The translations under genes were made by a program, and so were the position numbers. A model generated the notes under the pieces. It saw only the letters and a program-made list of their open reading frames with translations, was not told the DNA's origin and ran no database searches. Shown here piece after piece: positions 59,390 through 62,769 of a DNA stretch of 64,000 nucleotides. This DNA is from Butyricimonas faecalis (GTDB lineage Bacteria > Bacteroidota > Bacteroidia > Bacteroidales > Marinifilaceae). The DNA is taken from contig NZ_CP032819.1 in the NCBI RefSeq assembly GCF_003991565.1, forward strand, positions 4,774,001 to 4,838,000, written 5' to 3'. How positions within the stretch are numbered: position 1 is the stretch's first letter; each line of letters begins with the position of its first letter.

Positions 59390-61687
59390 ATGATGAAAAC
59401 AATATATAAAATCGCAAAATTAGAATTATCTAACCTCTTTTACTCTCCGATAGCGTGGTTTATTCTGATTATATTTATGTTGCAGATGGGAATCAATTTC
59501 GGGGAGACAATGGGGTCATACGGACGTTTGAATGAGTTGGGACGCCCGTTTGCAAGCTTGACCTCAAAAATATATTATGGTGGGATGATGAGTTTGTTAC
59601 GTGGTGTGGCGAGTTCGCTTTACTTGTATATACCGTTGTTAACGATGGGTTTGTTAAGTCAGGAGTTTAGTCGCGGTTCCGTGAAATTACTTTATTCTGC
59701 ACCCATTACCAGTTGGCAGATTGTACTGGGTAAGTACCTCGGAATTATGATCTATGGGTTTATCTTGATGCTTGTGCTGGGCGTGTATGTTTGCATCGGT
59801 TGGTGTGTTATTGAGAATTTTGATTGGCGACCGGTCTTGATTGGAGTTTTGGGATTGTATTTGTTACTGGGGGCTTACGCTGCCATCGGACTTTTTATGT
59901 CGTCTTTGACATCTTATCAGATTATTGCGGCATTAGGAACTTTTGTGGTATTCGCCCTTTTGAGTTTTGTTGGAAATATTGGTCAAGACATCGAGTTTGT
60001 AAGAGAAATTACCTATTGGCTCTCTTTGAACGGCCGGGGCGGTACGTTTTTGAAAGGAATGATTTGTAGCGAAGATGTGCTGTATTTTGTGATTGTGATT
60101 GCAATGTTCCTTTCTTTCTGTTTCTTGAAACTTCAATTAGGGCGAGCTCGTTATTCGGGGATGTCTAAAATGTTGCGTTATGGCGGAGTGTTTATGATTG
60201 CGATGCTTGCGGGATATGTGACGTCACGTCCTATGTTGAAAGCTTATTACGATGGAACTTATACGAAAGCAAACACAATTTCAGAAGCAAGCCAGGATAT
60301 AGTAAAGCGTTTGGATGGTGGGATGACGATCACATCTTACGTGAATCTTTTAGATAACGTTTATTCTTTTTCTCAAAGAGGAGTGCTCAATGACATTGCT
60401 TTTTTTGAGAAATACGTTCGGTTTAAACCGGATATTAAGATGAAATATGTGTTCTATTACGACGAGGTGGATAATCCAAAACTCGATAAAATGTATCCAG
60501 GATTGAGCGTGGAAGAGAAGGCAAAGAAGGTTGCAAAAGCAGCTAATTTGAAGTTGGATAATTATTTGACTCCGGAACAAATTCGAGAAAAGATAGATCT
60601 TTCGGATGAGGGTAATCACTTTGTTCGAATTTTGGAAAGGGATAATGGACAGACGGCTCGATTACGAATATTTAATGATATGCAGAAGCATCCTTCGGAA
60701 ACAGAAATTTCTGCAACGTTAAAACGGATGGTGATGAAGTTACCTAAAGTCGGCTTTTTGAAAGGTCATGGGGAACGTTCCATTGTCGGCTCCAAAAATC
60801 GGGATTATTCATTATTTGCTTACGGTAGATATTTCAGACATTCTTTGTTAAATCAAGGATTTGATGTAACAGAGTCTGTTTTGCAACCTGGAAAAGATAA
60901 TTTGGAAGATATTGATATTTTGGTGATTTCAGATCCCATGGAAGCTTTTGAAGATTGGGAATTGAAGCAATTGTCTGATTATATCGATAGCGGGAAAAAT
61001 TTGATAATCGCCGGAGAGCCTAAGCGTGGTGAGTATTTATCGCCTTTGCTTGAAAAGTTTGGAGTATGTTTTATCCCGGGAACGTTGGTGCAACCGATAG
61101 AAGAGTTTCCTGCAGATTTGTTAGTTGTTCGTTCCACTTTGGCCGGCGCTAAATTGAGTCGCATTAATGCTGGATGGCGGCGATCTGTTTTTACCATGCC
61201 GGGAGCAATGGGTATTGATTCTGTGGCAGACAAGGGATTTCAGATGATACCGTTGTTGGTTTCTAGAGATTCCGGTTGTTGGAATGAATTGGAAACTACG
61301 GATTTTGTAAATGAAATCGTGAAATTGAATCCGACGATCGGGGAAAGAGAAACTCAGATGGTGACGGCAATGGCTCTTAAGAGAGAACAAAATGGACGAG
61401 ATCAACGTGTGTTGGTGTTAGGCGATGCCGATTGTATTAGCATGGGAGAGCTTTCTGCGGCTCGAAGAGGAATCAGAGCTTCCAATTTTTCGTTGATTCG
61501 AGGCATGTTTTGTTGGTTGTCTTATGAAGAATTGCCGGTGGATATCGGACATCCGAAAGCAATAGATAACGATTTGTATCTAGGAACAACTTCTGGATTA
61601 TGGGTAAAAGTATTTGTGAAGTGGATACTTCCATTGGTTGTATTTTTGTTTGGAGTTATTTTGCTTCTGCGTAGGCAACGTAAATAA
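59390..61687 (+). CDS. ABC-2 permease fused to a GldG-like domain (GldF-GldG type)
   Basis: A 765-residue membrane protein. Residues 1-250 form an ABC-2 type permease with six helices (IAKLELSNLFYSPIAWFILI, then LLSQEFSRGSVKLLYSAPIT). A seventh helix near 265-280 leads into a large extracytoplasmic GldG-like domain (about 285-735) with VGFLKGHGERSIVG, DILVISDPMEAFEDWELKQL and VLVLGDADCISMGEL. A final helix at about 740-758 ends in RRQRK. In Flavobacterium GldF and GldG are separate proteins; here they are joined. It works with the ATPase just upstream. Confidence 0.88.
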   Translation: MMKTIYKIAKLELSNLFYSPIAWFILIIFMLQMGINFGETMGSYGRLNELGRPFASLTSKIYYGGMMSLLRGVASSLYLYIPLLTMGLLSQEFSRGSVKLLYSAPITSWQIVLGKYLGIMIYGFILMLVLGVYVCIGWCVIENFDWRPVLIGVLGLYLLLGAYAAIGLFMSSLTSYQIIAALGTFVVFALLSFVGNIGQDIEFVREITYWLSLNGRGGTFLKGMICSEDVLYFVIVIAMFLSFCFLKLQLGRARYSGMSKMLRYGGVFMIAMLAGYVTSRPMLKAYYDGTYTKANTISEASQDIVKRLDGGMTITSYVNLLDNVYSFSQRGVLNDIAFFEKYVRFKPDIKMKYVFYYDEVDNPKLDKMYPGLSVEEKAKKVAKAANLKLDNYLTPEQIREKIDLSDEGNHFVRILERDNGQTARLRIFNDMQKHPSETEISATLKRMVMKLPKVGFLKGHGERSIVGSKNRDYSLFAYGRYFRHSLLNQGFDVTESVLQPGKDNLEDIDILVISDPMEAFEDWELKQLSDYIDSGKNLIIAGEPKRGEYLSPLLEKFGVCFIPGTLVQPIEEFPADLLVVRSTLAGAKLSRINAGWRRSVFTMPGAMGIDSVADKGFQMIPLLVSRDSGCWNELETTDFVNEIVKLNPTIGERETQMVTAMALKREQNGRDQRVLVLGDADCISMGELSAARRGIRASNFSLIRGMFCWLSYEELPVDIGHPKAIDNDLYLGTTSGLWVKVFVKWILPLVVFLFGVILLLRRQRK

Positions 61688-61739
61688 AGGATGAATATTA
61701 GTTAACGTGAGTCCGATATAACTTAAAACAGTATAAGTT

Positions 61740-61783
61740 GCCTGTCATTGAATAAATTTACATCAATGGCAGGCTTCTTTTTG
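61740..61783 (+). terminator. Intrinsic terminator after the ABC genes
   Basis: A 12-bp stem pairs GCCTGTCATTGA (61740-61751) with TCAATGGCAGGC (61763-61774) with one G-T pair and an 11-base loop, and is followed by TTCTTTTT. Confidence 0.9.
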
Positions 61784-61795
61784 TGAAAATATTTT

Positions 61796-61803
61796 TATAT
61801 TTG
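61796..61803 (+). promoter_or_regulatory. -7 element of the structured RNA candidate
   Basis: TATATTTG is a perfect TAnnTTTG box. Transcription from it should begin about 5-7 bases downstream, at 61808-61810, which is where the outer stem of the RNA candidate starts. A TTTG at 61780-61783 is too close to serve as the -33 box. Confidence 0.5.
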
Positions 61804-61807
61804 TGAT

Positions 61808-61958
61808 GTCTAACATAACGCAACGGTGGGGAAACCTGCCACAATGTAGCAGGCATTTTTTATGCTTGCTATCTCCATATGGCGGTTCCGTACCCCCGTG
61901 TGGAGTGTTAATGTACCCACAGCCGTTGCGGTGTTAGACAGCGGGACAGGCGGAACCG
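61808..61958 (+). ncRNA. Structured RNA candidate with three stems and a possible pseudoknot
   Basis: The outer stem pairs GTCTAAC (61808-61814) with GTTAGAC (61933-61939), CGCAACGG (61819-61826) with CCGTTGCG (61923-61930), and TGGG with CCCA (61916-61919). Inside are a hairpin CCTGC/GCAGG (61835-61853), directly followed by a T6 run, and a hairpin of about 12 pairs starting CTCCATATGG (61873-61882) and closing with CCGTGTGGAG (to 61905). The apical CGGTTCCG (61883-61890) is perfectly complementary to CGGAACCG (61951-61958), allowing a pseudoknot. A promoter box sits at the right distance. It may belong to a known Bacteroidales RNA family; I cannot check this. The open frame through it is not a convincing protein. 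Confidence 0.6.
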
Positions 61959-62190
61959 TTTCTTTTCGTCCTAATCTTGAAACTAAAAGACGTATGAGGG
62001 GAAATCGTAATATAAAGTTTTGTGATATAAAAAGACAAAGGTTGGATAGAAGCGAGTGTTTTCGAGGTGATATATGAAAAATGGCGATAAGTGTAGGTCT
62101 GTTTGAATTATTTTATATTTTTGAAGATCAGTAAACGAGCGTTTAATGTATTTTGAAATGACATAGCATTTAAGACGTAAGAAGTTGGAT
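61959..62190 (+). other. Region between the RNA candidate and the third sigma gene
   Basis: No gene is supported. A -7-like TATTTTTG at 62116-62123 lies 67 bases before the sigma start codon and may be its promoter, but no -33 box is at the correct distance. Confidence 0.35.
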
Positions 62191-62769
62191 ATGAGTTTAA
62201 ATGAAGATCAGTCGTATATTTCGGGGTTACGGAAGCGAGATACCCAAACTTATGAGGTCGTATTTAAAAAATACTATCAGCCACTTGTTATGTTTGTCAT
62301 GCGTCATGTTGGAAATGAGGATGTAGCGAAAGATATTGTACAAGATATTTTCTTTAAATTATTTGAAGGTAGTCGTTCTCTTCCTGATGATTTTCTGTTG
62401 AAATCATGGTTTTATAGGGTTGCTCGTAATGCAGCGGTAGATTATCTTCGTCATCTGCAAGTGGAGGATAAGTACAAGTTTTTGATGGCAGAAGCGATGA
62501 TTAGTATCTCGGATATAGATGAAGAGATTGATGAGCAAGTGTATGCTAAAGTGAATTTAGCTATAGAAAGTTTACCGGAACAATGCAGGTTGATTATTAA
62601 GTTGAATGTATTGGAAGGGAAAAAGTATCAAGAGATTGCAGAAGAATTAGGAATCACGGTTAACACGATTCGTACGCAGGTGTCCAGGGGATATAAAAAA
62701 TTGCGAGATATTCTCTCGGGAGTGGTTGATTCTTCTGTTTTGTTTTTCATATTTTTGAAAAATAGATAG
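62191..62769 (+). CDS. FecI-type ECF sigma factor (module 3)
   Basis: A 192-residue ECF sigma factor. Region 2 lies at about residues 20-85 (FKKYYQPLVMFVMRHVGNED, AKDIVQDIFFKLFEGS, LLKSWFYRVARNAAVDYLRH). Region 4 lies at about 125-180 (IESLPEQCRLIIKLNVLEGK, then IAEELGITVNTIRTQVSRG). ATG 62191 is preferred to TTG 62185. The FecR partner follows after 225 bases. It probably controls a SusC/SusD operon beyond the window. Confidence 0.92.
   Translation: MSLNEDQSYISGLRKRDTQTYEVVFKKYYQPLVMFVMRHVGNEDVAKDIVQDIFFKLFEGSRSLPDDFLLKSWFYRVARNAAVDYLRHLQVEDKYKFLMAEAMISISDIDEEIDEQVYAKVNLAIESLPEQCRLIIKLNVLEGKKYQEIAEELGITVNTIRTQVSRGYKKLRDILSGVVDSSVLFFIFLKNR

Follow-up and report, generated by a model that had tools for sequence, protein, structure and literature searches.

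Riboswitch and attenuator leaders are 5' leader RNAs that combine a conserved core with mutually exclusive helices, a strand at the start codon, and a hairpin followed by a U-run. SymE/SymR is a type I toxin-antitoxin system in which the RNA is complementary to the start of SymE. In Bacteroides, FopS and GibS are multicopy RNAs, with sequence also reported from a phage, that act at the start codons of SusC-type mRNAs; FopS is trans-acting and has a single-stranded 5' seed and one terminator hairpin (available text of PMC11697453). Flavo-1 and other Bacteroidetes candidate motifs are computationally identified structured RNAs, some of which are beside phage genes (available text of PMC9723704 and PMC8040213).

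The RNA described here lies in a window of 64,000 nucleotides from Butyricimonas faecalis, this window being the whole stretch of DNA that was analysed (NZ_CP032819.1, positions 4,774,001 to 4,838,000). Judged by comparison of its copies, the family to which it belongs is probably a bistable start-codon switch, a promoter-linked leader RNA of Bacteroidota phages and of other, probably mobile, DNA. An earlier reading of the sequence alone, here called the sequence-only reading, had suggested that it may be a known Bacteroidales motif. This was not borne out, as Rfam 15 gave no match at the gathering score across the whole window and a best E of 3.9 at a relaxed threshold, which excludes a known Rfam family. 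Among the open-licence PMC papers found by searching, no title or abstract describes the RNA, although an unnamed entry among the 3161 candidates of PMC8040213 could correspond to it, and the available portions of PMC11697453, PMC8040213, PMC9723704, PMC10367356 and PMC7366714 contain no description of it. The family, which occurs in genomes, prophages and phages of Bacteroidota, has apparently not been described before.

The window copy and its relatives

The structured RNA at 61796-61970 is real. It is approximately 165 nt long, with a GC content of 0.52 and its own promoter box, and all of the features described below are on the forward (+) strand. The predicted folding energy of the segment 61806-61965 is -70.2 kcal/mol, whereas shuffled sequences give -47.2±4.1 (z -5.67), and 0 of 200 shuffles are as good. 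That the RNA is beyond chance is evident from the further copies in the genome, with their compensatory changes, and from the covariance-model matches in other Bacteroidota.

The covariance model R1 was built from 25 copies, the window copy itself among them, and contains the helices P1, P3 and P6. The window copy matches R1 along the whole length of the model (61803-61965) with 181.7 bits. It has the promoter box, P1, T1, P3, PAB, P6 and a weak P7, and it has no P1' third strand, the best score for this being 12.0. At the position usual for the controlled (cargo) gene there is a 27-codon ORF (MRGNRNIKFCDIKRQRLDRSECFRGDI, 61994-62077), starting at +29 from the model end at 61965, which is probably a remnant. 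No SymE-like toxin gene is present at the window copy. With fold I kept, P1' absent and only the 27-codon ORF behind it, the window copy is, on these sequence features, a free-standing relic or small RNA.

Behind the RNA are a sigma-70-type gene and a FecR gene, both recognised by Pfam, and the sequence-only reading had placed the RNA before the third sigma/FecR module. The closest sigma genes, in genomes G001 and G004, are 88% and 86% identical to that of the window, and their upstream stretches resemble the window from 62056 (G001) and 62031 (G004) onward. Neither locus has the RNA, by R1 search and by locus comparison, and a separate TAnnTTTG-type box is present at 62116-62123, between the window RNA and the sigma gene. 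An ancestral place of the RNA in the sigma/FecR module is therefore rejected, and the window copy is an orphan that precedes the module by chance. Further upstream, behind an ABC-type gene, there is a terminator-like inverted repeat with a T-run (GCCTGTCATTGA..TCAATGGCAGGC, 61740-61783), which is found twice more in the same genome (G000:C1:3487916 and 4444073), away from RNA copies.

A BLAST search of the genome returned 10 matches, of which 7 are RNA copies (that of the window and 6 others, one of them truncated at the 5' end). Two of the remaining matches cover only the upstream terminator-like repeat (query 1-43) and one is a weak fragment. The copies vary at paired positions with the pairing kept. 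R1 matches 8 places in the same genome, from 181.7 down to 30.8 bits. Behind related copies in the genus, a gene encoding a TonB-receptor plug domain follows after approximately 360-460 nt, the distance having been measured at 6 of 8 loci and 3 of the proteins scanned with Pfam. At several loci (L011, L012, L018, L019, L022) a further conserved hairpin-like stretch is present between the RNA and the TonB-receptor gene, and in several of them it lies around GTATTCTATGCCTGAGAAACGTTGAATA.

Counting the B. faecalis genome each time, R1 matches were found in 14 of 56 genomes of the bacterial family, 16 of 393 in the order sample and 3 of 395 in the phylum sample; searches of more than 40 genomes used stricter filters, by which weak matches may be missed. 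A DNA pattern identified 11 stretches of viral contigs, all 11 with an R1 match, and 44 stretches of genomes, every one with a match. The hosts of the latter include Alistipes, Parabacteroides, Bacteroides xylanisolvens XB1A, Odoribacter, Tannerella, Flavobacterium, Terrimonas and a Chitinophagaceae bacterium. With two looser patterns, 42 and 35 viral stretches were found, and 43 of the 45 new loci have an R1 match, the two without being L186 and L191. One stricter pattern gave 0 matches on viral contigs. In a phage collection, 11 records match at the DNA level, 10 Porphyromonas gingivalis phages and Bacteroides phage BS-TP3, and R1 confirmed the RNA in all 3 of the phage records examined. In BS-TP3 it precedes a 69-codon ORF beside the integrase gene. 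One Parabacteroides distasonis plasmid record carries the RNA too. This patchy distribution fits mobile DNA.

Some loci (L157, L151 and L154, in the order-level genomes G163 and G407) have neighbouring RNA copies, of which the well-preserved ones have their own guide and a small ORF, and some of these ORFs resemble partial duplications of one another.

Conserved helices and their alternatives

The architecture was derived from consensus folding of 25 copies and from later pair counts. For the latter, a first set of 91 copies was assembled from 75 of 108 R1 matches, overlapping loci and repeats having been dropped by hand, and 16 copies from the genus and family; 87 of these are unique. In the control, guides or strands were exchanged (swapped) among copies, with kinship considered only in the within-group swaps for P1 and P1'. 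Two off-target 70-base regions scored no higher than their swaps (961.5 against 948±17 and 960 against 950±18, 87 copies).

In the window copy, the TAnnTTTG promoter box (TATATTTG, 61796-61803) can be seen in the sequence and has the consensus given in the available text of PMC7366714. It is followed by the 5' strand of P1 (TGTCTAACAT, 61807-61816), whose partner is the guide, the 3' strand of P1 (GTGTTAGACA, 61931-61940). P1 covaries across the family, scoring 1747 against 927±26 for swaps in the 87 unique copies. A box of this type is found in 76 of the 87, 71 at the identical offset from P1 and 5 within one base, and the pattern finds none in the other 11; the proposed tie between box and outer stem therefore holds. 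Within P1, a helix P1b is formed by CGCAACGG (61819-61826) and CCGTTGCG (61923-61930), based on the predicted fold and the sequence.

The box, the outer stem, the CCTGC/GCAGG hairpin with its T6, and the 8-base complement between 61883-61890 and 61951-61958 are all where the sequence-only reading had placed them. The last of these, which it took for a pseudoknot, is part of PAB. PAB is a long imperfect helix in which CGGUUCCG and CCCGU pair with GCGGG and CGGAACCG. In the window copy, PAB-a joins CGGTTCCG (61883-61890) to the 3' strand at 61951-61958, and PAB-b joins CCCGT (61895-61899) to GCGGG (61941-61945). PAB scores 1837 against 1347±29 for swaps (87 unique copies). On 89 distinct rows aligned by R1, 95.4% of PAB cells are paired against 85.6±0.5 in shuffles, and 95 cells have double changes against 20±3.8, with 0 of 500 shuffles as high. 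PAB is absent from R1, so this alignment was not fitted to it. PAB-b is 99.5% paired and mainly invariant. Since P1 and PAB interleave, the whole RNA is a large pseudoknot. The covariation in homologues leaves the sequence-only reading unrefuted on this point.

The P6 hairpin (61899-61921, TGTGG-A-GTG-TTAATG-TAC-CCACA) covaries as RNA, as PAB does, and its loop, at 61908-61913 in the window copy, is UUAAUG in 76 of the 87 unique copies. P1, P3 and P6 are built into R1, and the pair counts for P6, made on alignment A5, which is fitted to it, lean toward the model. A long inner hairpin (P5) starting at 61873 had also been noticed. It is present in the predicted fold of the window copy, but as a conserved helix it is rejected, as 66.3% of its cells are paired against 65.9±0.7 in shuffles. 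It shares bases with P6.

Between P1b and PAB there are four strands that form a chain of helices, with P2 made of strands 1 and 2, T1 of strands 2 and 3 followed by a U-run, and P3 of strands 3 and 4 with that U-run in its loop. In the window copy, strand 1 (GGTGGG, 61825-61830) overlaps the top of P1b and pairs, with G-U, to strand 2 (CCTGCC, 61835-61840), which is either the 3' side of P2 or the 5' side of T1. Strand 3 (TAGCAGGCA, 61847-61855) is either the 3' side of T1, by its GCAGG, or the 5' side of P3. The T1 halves themselves are CCTGC at 61835-61839 and GCAGG at 61849-61853. After T1 comes the U6 run (T6 in the DNA, 61856-61861), and strand 4 (TGCTTGCTA, 61863-61871) is the 3' side of P3.

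A U-run of at least 4 is present in this region in 74 of the 87 unique copies, and the 13 without one were skipped. With the longest U-run as anchor, T1 scores 1078 against 898.5±21 and P3 scores 1167.5 against 925±25. P2 scores 838 against 728±17.5 with the first U-run as anchor only, in the same number of copies, and is weak on alignment A4. The first U-run is sometimes not the main one; repeating the tests with the longest run altered the choice in 7 of 74 copies and made the excesses slightly smaller. On A4, a smaller alignment, T1 has no double changes. A terminator scanner run over 61650-62250 gave no site, its loop limit being 8 and the T1 loop 9. The excesses of T1, P3 and P2 over swaps make strands 1-4 a chain of alternatives, as in an attenuator. 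Comparison supports the sequence-only reading on the conserved, terminator-like inner hairpin with its U-run and on the logic of a switch in general. Alternative pairing partners are present, among them a competing hairpin, P3.

A third strand at the start codon and the genes behind it

As a whole, that reading was supported in part; it missed the cargo genes, the occurrence in phages and a third strand that lies at the downstream start codon. A guide such as GTGNNNNNCA is complementary both to the 5' end of the RNA (TGNNNNNCAT) and to a second copy of it at the cargo start (TGNNNNNCAC), a pairing here called P1'. The idea arose from reading the first set by eye, ahead of testing. In its 87 unique copies P1' scores 1389.5 against 982.5±23 for swaps. 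The second set was formed from 54 matches minus 10 (8 duplicates and 2 without downstream sequence); it is partly related to the first, and 6 of its 44 copies are from loci fetched before the test (L159 with three, L160, L162 and L164). It gives 772.5 against 510.5±17.6, with an off-target region at 459 against 468.5±12.8. When swaps are confined to similar RNAs (15 groups with 90 copies in all), P1' still scores 1642 against 1236±35, and common descent therefore does not account for the excess.

At least 7 contiguous P1' pairs are found in 78 of 131 copies, against 11.8±3.1 by swapping with a maximum of 20. Such a strong P1' is present in 42 of the 87 copies of the first set and 36 of the 44 of the second. 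Among the 77 copies with an ORF, P1' begins at the T of the ATG in 32 and 6-12 nt before the ATG in 34. Where all 10 bases match, P1 ends in T (75 of 82) and P1' in C (25 of 30), so that P1' has a G-C pair where P1 has G-U. Three tandem copies in P. gingivalis phage023a have three guides, each tracked by its own P1 and P1'; the P1' of tandem copy 1 includes one G-U pair. At four loci (L115, L101, L123 and L136) the start codon is often in the loop of a possible TCTG/CAGA stem (TCTGTAATGNNNNNNACAGA).

The same repeats could in principle belong to a mobile or recombination element acting as DNA, the guide and the two direct repeats being target-site sequences rather than strands of RNA helices. 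P1 and P1' do flank the unit as direct repeats, and the copies are scattered and phage-carried. Yet the repeat is bound in position to the start codon and locked to the promoter box, P6 and PAB show the covariation of RNA helices, and 53 of the 131 copies have no strong P1'. This explanation is considered highly improbable. A group I intron was rejected by reasoning, because the two partners pair with the same bases of the guide and because the unit has a promoter of its own.

The 3' strand of PAB also has an alternative partner downstream, P7, with a U-run in its loop. P7 scores 1285 against 1079.5±22 (87 copies) and is weak or absent in several cargo classes. In the window copy PAB-a overlaps the 5' side of the competing P7, whose weak 3' strand, TTTCGTC, lies with the U-rich run at 61959-61970 (P7 score 14.0). 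By predicted duplex energy P1' is the stabler helix in only 37 of 78 copies, and with nested minimum-energy folding 69 of the 78 have the guide in P1, 4 have it in P1' and 5 in neither. As the energies do not favour P1', either fold I is the resting state or some factor has to tip the balance.

Within the downstream stretch covered, an ATG is present in 74 of the 75 copies placed; measured from the model end, the first ATG falls within +4 to +54 in 69 of the 74, and within +24 to +32 in 36. Of the open frames, 66 have at least 50 codons. When 65 distinct cargo proteins of 50 residues or more are compared, the largest clusters comprise 10 SymE-like proteins and two of 9 and 4 helical proteins of no assigned function, with further clusters of 7 having a TSAHET-type motif and 5 Bro-N-type antirepressors; these labels derive from the scanned members and from reading. 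Pfam recognised SymE (PF08845) in 2 scanned proteins (4e-14 and 3e-12), Bro-N with ANT in one, and Rha and KilA-N in two genes behind an RNA copy on contig 8 of G004. The cargo is not one family, and the RNA is thus a leader common to unrelated genes, several of them of phage.

Some cargo was characterised further. The protein at L109 has 112 homologues, nearly all unnamed and two called 'hypothetical protein'; its AlphaFold2 model is helical with a mean pLDDT of 77.1 and has no PDB match at E<=0.001. The first ORFs at L084, L086, L092, L135 and L143 share an N-terminal GTSAHETG motif. At L046, L047, L048 and L050 the RNA is found with a conserved two-gene operon (approximately 165 and 345 codons) in the same place in several genomes, adjoining genes that by eye resemble pyrG and yidC. 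Neither gene has a family above the cut-off in Pfam, PADLOC, NCBIfam or PHROG.

The cargo bears on whether the RNA is a metabolite riboswitch, in which a small molecule would bind the conserved core (CCCCCGUG, ACGGGA and the loop UUAAUG), stabilise fold I and free the start codon. The high conservation of these residues beside a variable, compensating expression platform would suit such a role. However, among the Pfam-scanned cargo, many of which have no family, no metabolic gene was recognised, those recognised being phage regulators and SymE-like proteins, and the distribution is patchy. A riboswitch is considered decidedly unlikely.

It is also possible, if rather unlikely, that the RNA is a small antisense RNA acting in trans. 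It would end at the U-run after PAB, and its guide would repress the downstream mRNA, made by read-through or from another promoter, at the start codon, as in type I toxin-antitoxin systems. A U-rich run does follow the 3' strand of PAB in most copies shown, SymE-like proteins are among the cargo, and the differing guides of tandem copies would limit cross-talk. In addition, Butyricimonas copies persist without P1' and with P1 kept: all 10 of the Butyricimonas-type copies checked have no strong P1', 10 contiguous P1 pairs and differing guides. Against this, the first ATG is so close that a separate promoter would have little space, in the free RNA the guide is engaged in P1, the majority of cargo clusters do not resemble SymE, and the terminator scan gave no site at the window copy. 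The Butyricimonas-type copies do indicate that P1' is not the sole function of the RNA, and this suggests that fold I may have some use of its own.

A probable start-codon switch compared with known systems

Comparison of the copies establishes the helices, the complementarity among three strands and its placement at the start codon, the distribution and the cargo. These are read most simply as a switch acting on translation, which may include a transcriptional checkpoint. Transcription would begin at P1. In fold I, P1 and the interleaved PAB would form the large pseudoknot, together with the hairpins P3 and P6, and the start codon would be open. In most mobile copies the guide could also pair, as P1', with approximately 10 nt that cover or just precede the cargo start codon, and the 3' strand of PAB could often take its second partner downstream in P7. 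Fold II would consist of P7 and P1', closing the start codon or the bases that immediately precede it and so blocking translation. The two folds would be mutually exclusive at two strands and would exchange with one another. T1 with its U6, which is terminator-like and would compete with P3, may add the transcriptional checkpoint, with termination at T1 and at the final U-run. Either fold I would be the resting, open state and a factor would close the gene, or the guide would be released by a partner or when the 5' end is lost.

More tentatively, and with somewhat less than even confidence, the family may be a new phage-borne class of regulatory RNA whose own ten leading bases imitate the start-codon region of the controlled gene, the two competing for one variable guide. 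Each cargo gene would then have a private switch, reused by phages for antirepressors, SymE-like proteins and other cargo, and the freed guide might act in trans. A leader RNA common to phages and prophages of Bacteroidota, strongly backed by comparison and without an Rfam match, would provide a handle on how Bacteroidota phages of the gut, mouth and aquatic environments control small regulatory or host-acting genes. R1 locates these small cargo genes, most of which are nameless, and the three-strand design of guide, 5' end and start codon makes clear predictions that can be tested.

For Flavo-1 and the other candidate motifs, the available text of PMC9723704 and PMC8040213 contains no account of an architecture like that of this family, and the window has no Rfam match at the gathering score. 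Like FopS and GibS, as far as these are described in the available text of PMC11697453, it is multicopy in Bacteroidota, linked to phages and complementary to start codons. Unlike FopS, its 5' strand is paired in P1, with covariation, it has a large pseudoknot, and the guide is inside P1. SymE-like cargo and an RNA complementary to the cargo start are shared with SymE/SymR, from which the family differs in that its RNA precedes the cargo on the same strand, in cis, and is common to many unrelated cargo genes. The likeness to riboswitch and attenuator leaders extends to the conserved core, the alternative helices, the start-codon strand and the hairpin with a U-run. It differs from riboswitch leaders in having no recognised metabolic cargo or known ligand, and in that its one variable guide has two matched partners, the 5' end of the RNA and the start codon.
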